Positions 10,567-22,726 of a DNA stretch of 25,586 bases are shown piece by piece; within the stretch, counting starts at the first letter, position 1, and the number at the start of each line of letters is the position of its first letter. The DNA is from a virus. The stretch is taken from positions 1 through 25,586 of the IMG/VR virus record IMGVR_UViG_3300037264_002187; one strand, 5' to 3'. Made by a program: the position numbers and the translations under genes. A model generated the notes under the pieces. That model was not told the DNA's origin and did not search any database. It saw only the letters and a program-made list of their open reading frames with translations.

Positions 10567-11979
10567 ATGCCGCGTTTCACACCCAAACGTTACGAGCAAA
10601 TCCTTACCGCGATGCTCGCGAAGCTCGTGTCCAGGACCGACCTCTCCGACATCACCGACGCCTCCGGGGTCAAGCATTTGCTGGCGGCAGCGGCCCGCCA
10701 AGACGACGAGTTGTACTTCCAGATGACCCTGTTGCTCGACCTTTTCTCGATCGATCGTGCTGTAGGCGAAGACCTGGATGAGCGGGCCAAGGACATTCAG
10801 CCCAGCATCGTGACCCGTTTCCAGGCGGTCGCGGCCAACGGCAACGTGGTGTTCAGTAGGGTTGGGACCGTCGGGACCATCAACGTACCGTCCGGCACCA
10901 AGGTCAAGACCGCAGACGGTAAAATCTTCACGACCACCGCGATCGCCACGATCACGCCAGCGTCACCTCAACAAATTGGGGGCCACGGGGTCGGTCGAGA
11001 TTCTAACCCGGTGGGTGCGATCGCAGATATCCCGGGGACCGCCGGCAACGTCGCGTCCAACACGATCATTAAGTTTGATGGCAAACCCGCGGGCGTCGAT
11101 GAGGTCACGAATCCCAACCCGTTCCAGAATGGCCTGGACCAAGAGCTTGATGATGCGTTCCGGGCCCGGCTCAAGCGGTTCATCGCGTCGCTACCGCGCT
11201 CGACCGTCGAGGCCATCGAGACCGGGGTCCTGGGGCTCACTGACCCGATCGGCGGTCGGACCGTCTTGTTCATCAAGGTGGTCGAGGACCTGATCCTCCG
11301 GGGTGACTTCACCACCTACGTGGACGACGGGACCGGGACCGCCGAGACTACCGCCGCGGTCGTCGGCGAAAACATGACCCTCGGGCTCGCGGGGCCACCC
11401 CCCAATTCAGCGGTTGGGGGCGAGCAATACCTGAACCTCAACAACAAGCCGGTCAAAGACTCGATCGTCCCGGTCCTGTCCAGCTCGACTCGTGGGGCCC
11501 TCACGATCAACGCGCATTACACGCTAGAGCCGGCCAGCGGACAAATCTTCTTCACCCCACCACTCGTTGCCAGCGAGGTCATCACGGCCGGCTACACCCA
11601 CTATACGGGGCTCATTCAGTTCGTCCAGAAAGTGATCGACGGCGACATACTCGACCGCGCTAATTACCCTGGGCTGCGGGCTGCCGGGACCCGGGCGTTG
11701 GTCCGGACCCCCCAGATCCTCGTCCAGACCGTGGCTGCGGTCCTGACGGTCAAGGAAGGGTTCGTCCAGGGTGATGTCCAGACTGCGGTCCGCGAAGAAA
11801 TAAAACGCTACATCAACGGCCTCGGGATTTCTGGAGATGTCATCCGCAACGAGGTCATCAAACGGATCATGACGGTCGCGGGCGTTTACAACGTGTCGTT
11901 AACGGTGCCGGCCGCCGACGTGATCTTGCTGGACGATCAAATGCCGCGTATTTCTGACCCCAACATCACCCTGAGTTAA
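10567..11979 (+). CDS. Baseplate wedge protein, gpJ/gp6-like
   Basis: This 470-residue protein belongs to the baseplate J family, which forms the wedge ring that triggers sheath contraction. It starts at ATG 10567 with GAGG at 10557-10560, six bases upstream. Signature features are an N-terminal helical segment with DELYFQMTLLLDLFSIDRAVGEDLDERAKD, then NGNVVFSRVGTVGTINVPSGTKVKTADG, the standard 'G.v.f.r......i..Gt.v.t.dG..f.t' motif, followed by GIAGN-like spacing (ADIPGTAGNVASNTI) and ELDDAFRARLKRFIASLPRSTVEAIE. The C-terminus (VLTVKEGFVQGDVQTAVREEIKRYINGL) is the usual end region. It lies directly after the gp25-like fusion, the canonical order W-J. The length is normal for J-like proteins of larger myophages. 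Confidence 0.9.
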   Translation: MPRFTPKRYEQILTAMLAKLVSRTDLSDITDASGVKHLLAAAARQDDELYFQMTLLLDLFSIDRAVGEDLDERAKDIQPSIVTRFQAVAANGNVVFSRVGTVGTINVPSGTKVKTADGKIFTTTAIATITPASPQQIGGHGVGRDSNPVGAIADIPGTAGNVASNTIIKFDGKPAGVDEVTNPNPFQNGLDQELDDAFRARLKRFIASLPRSTVEAIETGVLGLTDPIGGRTVLFIKVVEDLILRGDFTTYVDDGTGTAETTAAVVGENMTLGLAGPPPNSAVGGEQYLNLNNKPVKDSIVPVLSSSTRGALTINAHYTLEPASGQIFFTPPLVASEVITAGYTHYTGLIQFVQKVIDGDILDRANYPGLRAAGTRALVRTPQILVQTVAAVLTVKEGFVQGDVQTAVREEIKRYINGLGISGDVIRNEVIKRIMTVAGVYNVSLTVPAADVILLDDQMPRISDPNITLS

Positions 11980-20187: not shown

Positions 20188-20640
20188 ATGGGTTTTATCT
20201 GGTTGGCCGCCGGCATCGCGCTGGCGGCCCCAGGAGCCTCGCCGGGACCAGATCCCTCATTCTGTGACCCGGGAGCCCCCAAACGTTGCGCCCAGCCCCT
20301 CCAGCAGGGCCAGGTGGCTCCCTACGCAGGCCAGCTCCTCACCCCCGAGCTAGCCGCTGACCTTGGGGTCAAGGCGGACGGCTGCGACGGCCGGATCGCC
20401 CAAGAAGTCGACTTCACGAAACGGGTCGCCGCCATCGACCTAAACTTAGCGCAACAGCTCAGGGCCATCGACAAAATCGCTTGTGACCACGCTGTCTCGA
20501 TCCTCACCCGCGCCCATGAGGCCGCGATCGAGCCCCCACCAATCTACGAACGTCCCTGGTTCGTCGCGAGCGTCACGTTCATCCTGACGGTGGCGGCCGG
20601 GTCCCTCGCGGTCCGAGGGGCTAGCCAGCTCGCTAAGTAA
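20188..20640 (+). CDS. Secreted/membrane protein with signal peptide and C-terminal anchor
   Basis: This 150-residue protein starts at ATG 20188, two bases after the preceding stop. Residues 1-17 look like a signal peptide (MGFIWLAAGIALAAPGA). Next come a Cys/Pro-rich stretch and APYAGQLLTPELAADLGV, a motif I associate with a family of phage-encoded exported proteins. Residues about 65-115 are helical, with Cys68 and Cys94 flanking an acidic amphipathic helix. One membrane segment lies near the C-terminus (WFVASVTFILTVAAGSLAV), followed by basic residues. Two topogenic ends joined by a periplasmic helix resemble unimolecular spanins, but there is no lipobox cysteine, so that call stays open. 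It is the last gene before the regulatory junction at 20641. Confidence 0.6.
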   Translation: MGFIWLAAGIALAAPGASPGPDPSFCDPGAPKRCAQPLQQGQVAPYAGQLLTPELAADLGVKADGCDGRIAQEVDFTKRVAAIDLNLAQQLRAIDKIACDHAVSILTRAHEAAIEPPPIYERPWFVASVTFILTVAAGSLAVRGASQLAK

Positions 20641-20685
20641 ATACACGTTTAATTTCTGACACTTACGTCGGTTTATGCTTGCTGG

Positions 20686-20787
20686 ATGACGAATAAGTCT
20701 GGATCAAGGCCCAAAAAGCCCGGCCCAAGCGTCTATATCGTCGAGGTTGTGGAACCTCCACCCTATGCCCCCAAATTGCCCCCGTAA
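20686..20787 (+). CDS. Possible very small protein (33 aa)
   Basis: A 33-codon frame starts at ATG 20686 and ends at TAA 20785-20787. The product is basic then proline-rich (KSGSRPKKPGPS, ending EPPPYAPKLPP). There is no clear ribosome binding site. A TATGCT (20674-20679) lies six bases before the ATG, so a leaderless message is conceivable, but no good -35 box precedes it. The frame uses TCT GGA for Ser-Gly like several confident genes here. Low confidence: it could be random. Confidence 0.3.
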   Translation: MTNKSGSRPKKPGPSVYIVEVVEPPPYAPKLPP

Positions 20788-20819
20788 GAGCCACTTCCCC
20801 GGAGTGGCGCGTTGGGGGC
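20778..20819 (+). other. Nested hairpin structure in the junction
   Basis: GCCACT (20790-20795) pairs with AGTGGC (20803-20808). Around this, GCCCCC (20778-20783) can pair with GGGGGC (20814-20819). The left outer arm overlaps the end of the small ORF. There is no T tract, so this is not a standard intrinsic terminator; it may stop or pause late transcription together with another signal. Confidence 0.45.
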
Positions 20820-20872
20820 GGGGTGCATTTGACCTCCCACGGTACAGTATTAGCTGTGTGGTGGAGTGGTAA

Positions 20873-20902
20873 CTGAAGAGGTACTGATAGCGTAGCTATC
20901 AT
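20873..20902 (+). promoter_or_regulatory. Candidate promoter with palindromic operator-like site
   Basis: TATCAT (20897-20902) is one base off the TATAAT -10 consensus. A weak CTGAAG (20873-20878) lies 18 bases upstream. The -10 box is covered by a perfect inverted repeat, TGATAGC (20885-20891) and GCTATCA (20895-20901), separated by GTA. A repressor binding this palindrome would block the promoter. It precedes the helicase and the replication genes. The promoter strength is a guess; the palindrome is seen directly. Confidence 0.4.
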
Positions 20903-20937
20903 GCACTGAAAAAGTTTGAGGACTGGAGAACGAACGA

Positions 20938-22605
20938 GTGGACGGAGTTCCTCCTGAAGGCCCCGCGCAGGGCGCGGGGCAGAGTCCCTTCGGGACTCAT
21001 TTCCCATTGGCTGATCTGGGAGGAGGAACAGGGATCCTTACCCTGGAGGTCCACAACACCTGGATCTCGATCCTCAACCCCCATCCCTATGGACTCGACC
21101 TGATCGATCACGAAACGAGGTACCCGACCGAAACCGCACTTGCGCTCGCCCGCGGGTTCCGCGCCCCCGACCAACACCCCTGTTCCGCCTGCCAGGCCAC
21201 CGGCCTGGTCAACGGGACGTTCTGTGAGGGGTGCCGGGGGACTGGCCTTACCTCGGGGTGGGACGGGTGGATCCGGTTGCTTCACCGGACCAAGACCAAG
21301 CCCCCGTACTTCCCGGCCGGCCTCCTGTACCGGGCCACCAACGTCCTCCAGGCCAATCAGGTCCCGTTCACCGTGGTGGACCGTCGTGAGCGGCCTGTCG
21401 AGGGGTTCCCGGAGGCCGCTGACCTCCAGCTCCGTGACTACCAGGTCGCGGCCGCGGACTTGGCGCTCAAGCAGGGCCGCGGGGTGCTCGATATGCCGCC
21501 GCGTTCTGGAAAGACCAGGACCATGGCCGAGATCGTCAGGCGCCTCGGCCTCAAGACTATCTGGATGGCTCCAACCGATCGGATCGTCCAACAGACCCAT
21601 GAATTTCTGGACGGCGCGGTTGGCCCCCACTACTGCCACCGACAGACCGGGGTAGCGGGTTGGGAGGTCGCTGCCAACCACAACGTCGTGGTTTGTACCG
21701 CGTCGACCGCCGCGATGCTGCCCGCCGAGTTTTATCGGTCCCGCGAGGTCTTGGTTGTAGACGAAATTCACCATGCCTCGGCAAAATCGTACGGTGAGAT
21801 CGCGAAGATGTGCGACCACGTGTATTACCGGTTCGGGATGACCGGGACGTTCTTCCGGTCTGGTCCAGACTTATTGGCGCTCCATGGTTTTTTGTCCGAC
21901 GTGATCTACCGGATCACCAGCGTGGAGTTGGAGCGGCGCGGTCACTTGGTCCCCACCAAGGTCGTGTTCTTACCGGTATTGTCTGGACCGCTCAAGGGTG
22001 TGCCGCGGTCGTCAACCTACCAGCAGGGGATCGGGAAGCTGGGGATCCAGGAGCACGAGTACCGGCAACAGCTTGCGGCGAATTGCGCAGCCTACCTGGA
22101 TAAGTCTGGACGCCGCGTCCTTTGTCTGGTCGCGACAAAGCGACAAGGCCGTGACCTTGCGGAGCGAATCGGACCGTTGATCAAAAAGGCCCCGACCGGT
22201 GCCCAGTTCAAGGCGGTTGAGTTCGTTTCGACCGATACAGAGCGGTCGACCCTCAACAAGATTCTGGACAGTTTCATCAACCACCAGGAGGTCAGGGTCT
22301 TGATCGGGACCAGCTTGTTGGGCGAGGGCGTCGATCTCCCGGGCGCCGACGCCCTCGTGTACGCCCGCGGCGAGAAGGCCGAGGTCTCGCTCACCCAGAA
22401 CGCCTATCGGGTTTGTACGGCGGCCGAGGGCAAGGGTGCGGCCGTCATCGTGGATTTCGCGGATCGCCACCACCCGAAGCTTTTGGCGCACTCCCAGGAG
22501 CGGCTCGCCGTCTATTACGACGAACCGATCTTCTCGTGCGAAGTCCTTGCAGATCCGGCCGACTTCCCGGGGTGGGCCCAACGGGCGGGGCTCATTCGTC
22601 TATAG
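20938..22605 (+). CDS. SF2 helicase with N-terminal DnaJ-like zinc knuckle (start uncertain)
   Basis: This DEAD/DEAH-type superfamily 2 ATPase is likely involved in replication, recombination or transcription restart of phage DNA. Numbered from GTG 20938 (555 residues), there is a zinc knuckle CxxC-x10-CxxC at Cys82, 85, 96 and 99, with DnaJ-style spacing (CQATG, CRGTG). A Q-like motif LRDYQ precedes Walker A PPRSGKT (187-193). Motif II DEIH is at 275-278 and motif III GMTGTF at 300-305. Motif V is GTSLLGEGVDLPGAD. Motif VI is QNAYRVCT, which lacks the usual second arginine. The layout is like UvsW-type and RecG/XPB-like phage helicases. The GTG lies within a folded leader; a strong GGGAGGAGG at 21018-21026 instead points to an ATC at 21034 (523 residues), giving a natural-looking LTLEVHNTW start. 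Confidence 0.85.
   Translation: MDGVPPEGPAQGAGQSPFGTHFPLADLGGGTGILTLEVHNTWISILNPHPYGLDLIDHETRYPTETALALARGFRAPDQHPCSACQATGLVNGTFCEGCRGTGLTSGWDGWIRLLHRTKTKPPYFPAGLLYRATNVLQANQVPFTVVDRRERPVEGFPEAADLQLRDYQVAAADLALKQGRGVLDMPPRSGKTRTMAEIVRRLGLKTIWMAPTDRIVQQTHEFLDGAVGPHYCHRQTGVAGWEVAANHNVVVCTASTAAMLPAEFYRSREVLVVDEIHHASAKSYGEIAKMCDHVYYRFGMTGTFFRSGPDLLALHGFLSDVIYRITSVELERRGHLVPTKVVFLPVLSGPLKGVPRSSTYQQGIGKLGIQEHEYRQQLAANCAAYLDKSGRRVLCLVATKRQGRDLAERIGPLIKKAPTGAQFKAVEFVSTDTERSTLNKILDSFINHQEVRVLIGTSLLGEGVDLPGADALVYARGEKAEVSLTQNAYRVCTAAEGKGAAVIVDFADRHHPKLLAHSQERLAVYYDEPIFSCEVLADPADFPGWAQRAGLIRL
20947..21029 (+). ncRNA. Folded 5' leader that can hide a strong ribosome binding site
   Basis: Three perfect pairings nest here. 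Outer stem: GTTCCTCCT (20947-20955) with AGGAGGAAC (21021-21029), which is itself the ribosome binding site. Inside are two tandem hairpins: GCCCCGCGC (20960-20968) with GCGCGGGGC (20972-20980), and GAGTCCC (20982-20988) with GGGACTC (20992-20998). Together they make a multibranch RNA fold in which the Shine-Dalgarno sequence is paired. I know no matching riboswitch family. The fold suggests regulated translation of the helicase; an alternative is that the GTG at 20938 starts the protein and these pairings are inside coding sequence. Confidence 0.5.
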
Positions 22606-22609
22606 GGGC

Positions 22610-22726
22610 ATGGGAGCCGTGTGTTATTGTGTTGAGGCTGCGAGCCTCTTGGCTCTTGCCGACTTCCCGGCTGACCGTGGTTACCCCTTCGGTCAGCCGG
22701 GTTTTTCTTTTGGAGGTCTTCGGTGA
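22610..22726 (+). CDS. Possible leader peptide ORF running through the terminator
   Basis: A 38-codon frame runs from ATG 22610 to TGA 22724-22726. It ends in a 4-base GTGA overlap with the next gene, as real coupled genes do. It starts four bases after the helicase stop, with a GGGG only one base before the ATG, too close for efficient initiation. The product is unremarkable (contains ALADFPADRGYPFGQ). Ribosomes translating it would prevent the terminator stem from folding, giving possible translation-dependent readthrough. Speculative. Confidence 0.3.
   Translation: MGAVCYCVEAASLLALADFPADRGYPFGQPGFSFGGLR
22634..22655 (+). promoter_or_regulatory. Two mutually exclusive small hairpins upstream of the terminator
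   Basis: GAGGCT (22634-22639) can pair with AGCCTC (22643-22648). Alternatively GAGCC (22642-22646) can pair with GGCTC (22651-22655). Both use the AGCC at 22643-22646, so they exclude each other. Such arrangements occur in attenuators, and the strong terminator follows 11 bases later. Short stems, so evidence is suggestive only. Confidence 0.3.
22666..22711 (+). terminator. Strong intrinsic terminator abutting the next gene's ribosome binding site
   Basis: A perfect 12-bp stem (CCCGGCTGACCG 22666-22677 with CGGTCAGCCGGG 22690-22701) is followed by TTTTTCTTTT (22702-22711), the best terminator in the window. The next base starts TGGAGG, the ribosome binding site for the gene at 22723, so no promoter fits between. 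Downstream genes must be read through it, or it must be controlled. Confidence 0.85.

Follow-up and report, generated by a model that had tools for sequence, protein, structure and literature searches.

Leaders that sequester the ribosome binding site (RBS) have been documented for the mRNAs of the phage T4 genes e, soc, 49 and I-TevI and of mobE of phage Aeh1, and T4 genes 25 and 38 have split initiation regions (PMC3014915). The general kind of element described here, a leader that covers a Shine-Dalgarno sequence (SD), is therefore already known from T4; what is new in detail is the leader element itself, the turnover of its hairpins and the absence of the ATG. The e-type leaders of T4 and Aeh1 are the closest precedent, for in them, too, the SD of a single phage gene lies under a stem when the transcript is full-length. 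The present leader differs from them in the two perfect clamp hairpins inside a branched fold and in a candidate start codon other than AUG; moreover, no promoter was recognised in its 5' arm, and removal of this arm in silico leaves the SD paired. T4 genes 25 and 38 likewise have hairpin structure at the initiation region, but there it is located between the SD and the AUG, which it brings closer together, whereas the SD studied here is already 7 nt from the codon. According to one in vitro study, initiation factor IF3 gives preference to codon-anticodon pairs that are strong at the third base (PMC10158994).

The DNA analysed (the window) is a virus record of 25.6 kb. Its left part carries tail genes and its right part replication genes, every one of them on the + strand (Table 1). 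The first gene of the replication block, directly preceded by the structured leader, encodes a protein with ResIII and Helicase_C domains that belongs to a phage helicase family and can be classed as a UvsW-like SF2 helicase. With UvsW and XPB-RAD25 it has the helicase domains and the family's N-terminal start in common. It differs from the proteins of named phages by its low identity (only 26-29%), and from its relatives by a Cys-rich CxxC...CxxCxGxG insert (residues ~82-103 of the GTG form). This insert, CSACQATG...CEGCRGTG, is encoded by positions 21181-21246, gives a weak match to the DnaJ zinc domain and is missing from the aligned relatives. The strong intrinsic terminator right behind the gene suggests that the helicase has its own transcription unit. 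At the position of the small upstream gene, for which PHROG gave no match, the relatives encode CDPxDPKSCVQPLLEGExAPFxGQLLT.... Named phages included no DNA relative of the window, and searches of IMG/VR with exact peptides and with the SD-ATC DNA pattern detected no close relative. A search for tRNA and tmRNA genes in the window was negative.

Table 1. Features of the helicase locus (positions in the window)
Feature	Position	Strand	Basis or remark
Small upstream protein gene, last of the tail/lysis side	20188..20640	+	ORF; synteny conserved
Structured intergenic leader of the helicase	20641..21033	+	z -4.87 (20640-21060); syntenic counterparts in relatives
GC-rich stem, arms 20777-20783 / 20814-20820, variable apical hairpin	20777..20823	+	covariation, 11 phages; model match
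Perfect 7-bp hairpin, loop GTA	20885..20901	+	
GGAG, SD of GTG 20938	20925..20928	+	dG -6.4
GTG, upstream in-frame start candidate	20938..20940	+	extension 20938-21033 non-coding in composition
P1 5' arm GTTCCTCCT, anti-SD-like	20947..20955	+	inverted repeat, MFE fold
P2 hairpin, 9 bp, loop AGG	20960..20980	+	MFE fold, hairpin search
P3 hairpin, 7 bp, loop TTC	20982..20998	+	MFE fold, hairpin search
In-frame TTG inside the fold	21007..21009	+	poor SD
P1 3' arm AGGAGGAAC	21021..21029	+	AGGAGG 21021-21026, the hidden SD
ATC at the family start position	21034..21036	+	aligned to the ATG codons of phage G gp400 and L036
UvsW/XPB-like SF2 helicase gene	21034..22605	+	Pfam ResIII/Helicase_C, phrog_16, PDB XPB/UvsW matches
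Intrinsic terminator following the helicase gene, 12-bp stem and TTTTTCTTTT	22666..22711	+	

A sequence-only reading of the window had described a 9-bp stem (P1) between 20947-20955 and 21021-21029, enclosing hairpins of 9 and 7 bp. All three stems were found at these positions and are perfect. The minimum free energy structure of 20938-21036 was exactly this three-stem fold (-51.9 kcal/mol; z -3.33, with 3 of 200 shuffles as good). Folding of 20870-21060, which that reading had proposed, gave a z of -3.75, and the whole intergenic stretch (20640-21060) one of -4.87. The assertion that an SD match together with two hairpins is unlikely by chance was borne out by the fold (z -3.3) and by the rarity of both elements in the window. 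A 9-mer with a perfect complement within 100 nt upstream occurs at 0.15% of positions, and among the 44 GGAGG sites only the P1 site and the one at 21411 have an upstream complement of at least 7 nt. Two perfect hairpins of at least 7 bp with 3-nt loops within 60 nt were seen in one of 60 shuffled windows. The fold is real and apparently selected.

The sequence agreed with the description of an AGGAGG 7 nt 5' of ATC 21034, followed by no later ATG, GTG or TTG. GTG 20938 is, however, not the only conventional in-frame start upstream, as had been claimed, because TTG 21007 lies inside the fold, although without a good SD. The SD of the ATC (-11.7 kcal/mol) ranks second among the tabulated genes and is stronger than those of 99.7-99.9% of random positions (chance 0.1-0.3%); an SD as strong as that of the GTG is found at 5-11% of random positions. 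Between the GTG and the ATC (20938-21033), G+C by codon position is 0.81/0.62/0.53, compared with 0.61/0.46/0.77 in the genes, and the codon log-likelihood falls at the 0.4th percentile of coding windows. Homology of this extension with the N-terminal extensions of three relatives (L053, L054 and L068) did not rise above that of shuffles. Since the extension looks non-coding and resembles no relative's extension, these results argue against the GTG, unless its use is recent.

Homology, too, begins at the ATC codon, so that the gene shows both this and the suitably spaced SD looked for in an AUC-started gene. In about 25 relatives (39-58% identity) the conserved N-terminus lies at the ATC position or within a few codons of it, and most have the family start at the ATC or at most 5 codons away. 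The nearest relatives (L030-L037 and L042, 52-58% identity) start at the ATC position or up to 4-5 codons upstream. L036 has an ATG exactly there, with a matching SD (MLNLEVGNTW, compared with ILTLEVHNTW in the window), and the annotated ATG of phage G gp400 also aligns with the ATC. In L029 and L042, which are one and the same phage, the homologous sequence starts from residue 33 of the GTG form. The expectation that conservation would begin at LTLEV thus held, the alignments of helicase homologues beginning at ILTLEV and the upstream frame being non-coding-like. On sequence comparison this supports the ATC site as the initiation site of the family. Loss of the ATG with recruitment of the GTG, or a wrong base at the ATC, may both be compatible with a family start at this place. 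Several relatives already use the weak starts GTG or TTG. Helicase genes without a structured leader (L038, L039, L041, L047 and L069) tend to such weak starts, and those with one (L030-L037, L042 and L060) mostly have ATG, a comparison in which the shared ancestry of the phages is not controlled.

In the predicted full leader the SD of the ATC is 1-6% unpaired and P1 forms with a probability of 0.75-0.96, so that the SD is paired in the full-length form, as in RBS-sequestering leaders. The SD of the GTG is predicted to be 36-91% unpaired, depending on the chosen ends. In nascent RNA the P1 5' arm is predicted to pair first with the SD of the GTG (probability about 0.5) and to shift to the SD of the ATC once the latter has been made. 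In silico truncations lacking the 5' arm did not free the SD, which found other partners, indicating that P1 is not cleanly a gate. Release by shorter transcripts, as in T4 e, is therefore disfavoured, also because no sigma-70-like promoter was recognised, the consensus possibly not being the phage's own. Rfam gave no match at gathering or relaxed thresholds; the best sub-threshold match was on the other strand (22.4 bits, cut-off 49.5). The idea of an RNA switch was not supported by these searches: there is no Rfam match and no conserved, ligand-binding-like core with covarying stems, only the upstream GC-rich stem covaries, and the SD pairing is not conserved in relatives.

In one kind of relative the helicase gene is separated from the conserved small gene by a gap of roughly 260-510 nt. 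In 10 gap-bearing phages (including L066) the 130 nt before the ATG at or near the family position had z values from -1.9 (L030) to -6.1 (L060). Where the helicase directly follows another gene (L047, L038, L041, L039 and L061), and also in L048 and L071, z was about 0 (-0.9 to +0.6). The z values for L053, L054, L064, L068, L070, L073 and a few others are approximate, as the segments do not end exactly at the start codon. Tandem, near-perfect hairpins are present in L032, L034, L036, L037 and L060, but share no sequence with the window, and from one relative to another the hairpins near the start have no sequence in common either. Occlusion of the SD is predicted to be strong only in the window phage (3% unpaired, compared with 18-82% in relatives). 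In L053, L054 and L068 the hairpins are followed by no start codon and hence lie inside a coding N-terminal extension. Here L053 and L054 are identical over about 60 nt except for three base pairs at a hairpin tip, GGG-CUUCG-CCC in one and CCC-CUUCG-GGG in the other. These are three compensatory changes, on both sides, in one sequence pair and possibly from one event; a pattern search found the hairpin in only these two phages. Because it lies within a coding extension, the family tolerates read-through of leader hairpins. The searches found no near relative that shares the P1-P3 stems; the compensatory changes are in equivalent leader structures and not in P1-P3 themselves. In three phages, GATC-rich direct and inverted repeats were noticed downstream of the GC-rich stem and ahead of the hairpins close to the start (L030:4885-4940, L033:1570-1620 and L034:4850-4900).

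The GC-rich stem, about 200-260 nt upstream of the ATC, is common to 11 phages. RNAalifold applied to a plain MAFFT alignment returned almost nothing because the registers were misaligned, and covariation appeared when the alignment was trimmed to the stem ends. In the trimmed alignment 94.5% of the cells pair, and 4 of the 7 pairs are changed on both sides. The covariation score of 0.418, somewhat flattering because the structure was read from the same sequences, compares with at most 0.132 in slid registers and was reached by none of 500 shuffles. A model of the stem gave a single match in each of two long relative records (109 and 85 kb); Rfam contains no such stem. Having no U-run, it is not a plain intrinsic terminator; our guess, given the C-rich 5' flank, is that it acts where the upstream operon ends, for instance in a Rho-dependent manner.

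The interpretation that we favour, tentatively and with considerable reserve, is that the helicase mRNA is restrained and read mainly from the GTG, the ATC site being a former or minor start of the family. This mRNA would have a selected, structured leader, placed between the tail/lysis and the replication blocks, with the fold as its 3' end, and the leader would restrain translation of the UvsW-like helicase. The internal anti-SD GTTCCTCCT would pair with the strong SD at the family start, with the two clamp hairpins between them, and the site would stay closed unless something opened P1. The likeliest opener would be a ribosome coming from GTG 20938, with its weaker and accessible SD, and reading through the fold in frame; AUC 21034 would be a former ATG start, used little or never. 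We prefer read-through from the GTG since a ribosome starting there would melt the fold in frame and the GTG's SD is partly open, and in ranking the starts we set the rareness of AUC initiation against how good the ATC site is. The analysis establishes the fold and its strength, where the family starts, the presence of structured leaders in relatives and the compensatory changes in equivalent structures; that translation is repressed, that read-through opens the fold and that the GTG is preferred to the AUC is what we infer. With a leader of this kind the locus would offer a concrete system for how phages hold a helicase back until replication has begun.

AUC initiates very poorly, and no other phage that uses it was found. 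Translation from AUC 21034 itself, under a near-perfect SD and with the leader keeping the site mostly closed, which was the main proposal of the sequence-only reading, is unlikely, though it deserves serious attention: this SD is among the strongest in the window and optimally spaced, homology begins at the codon, the extension has hardly the codon usage of a gene, and weak starts are not foreign to the family. This SD is buried as well, however, and a serviceable GTG with its own SD lies upstream in frame. If true, the helicase gene would be a rare natural case of an AUC start, one that a strong SD maintains and that structure keeps closed. A wider version, which we hold to be doubtful, has an undescribed clade leader, made of the covarying GC-rich stem and the hairpin array, controlling the UvsW-like helicase and gating a natural AUC start in the window phage; the sequence of the array would turn over completely while its architecture is kept, sometimes into coding sequence. 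Independently of the start codon, the leader of this helicase clade is an unlisted structured element; it appears to be selected for fold rather than for sequence, and in one instance three compensatory changes fall within coding sequence.

Because occlusion of the SD is not conserved, what the leader hairpins have in common may be a role in stability or in the binding of a protein. In the corresponding account the pairing of the SD is incidental, and the hairpins act in the stability or processing of the mRNA or bind a protein; the helicase, for example, might regulate itself in this way, as its relative in T4 works on branched nucleic acids. This account seems to us improbable: the hairpins recur in relatives, within coding sequence in L053, L054 and L068, and the SD pairing does not, but the P1 complement of the window spans the whole SD, a 0.15% event. 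Less probable again is a true ATG at 21034, altered by an assembly or sequencing error or in a rare defective variant, that would be an ordinary start behind a structured leader. It would account at once for the SD and its spacing, for where the family starts and for the non-coding look of the extension, with L036 having its ATG exactly at this position, but single-base errors are rare in assembled contigs and no second copy of the phage was found for comparison. That the inverted repeats act as DNA, as a replication origin or other site, is very improbable. Their location before the replication block and the palindromes and GATC-rich repeats of L030, L033 and L034 fit such a role; however, GC skew showed no turn at the site in the two long relative records, and the hairpins sit directly at the start codon and are missing in relatives without the intergenic gap.

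Some further observations were made in the relatives. A 12-bp palindrome, GGCTTGACTGCA-AATT-TGCAGTCAAGCC, occurs twice in one phage (L085 and L083; G001 56298-56325 and 11772-11799), one copy immediately following the small gene that precedes the helicase leader, and L033 has the related ACTGCAAATTTGCAGT at the place after the small upstream gene. The helicase gene of L069 (1603-4122) is interrupted at Walker A (PPRC...NSGKT) by an intein-like insert, in frame and some 330 residues long, and that of L076 (1348-3816) contains an intein-like insert at motif II (DEWHHC...NSASKTY). Inside the latter there is a long open frame in the +1 frame which looks like a homing endonuclease.
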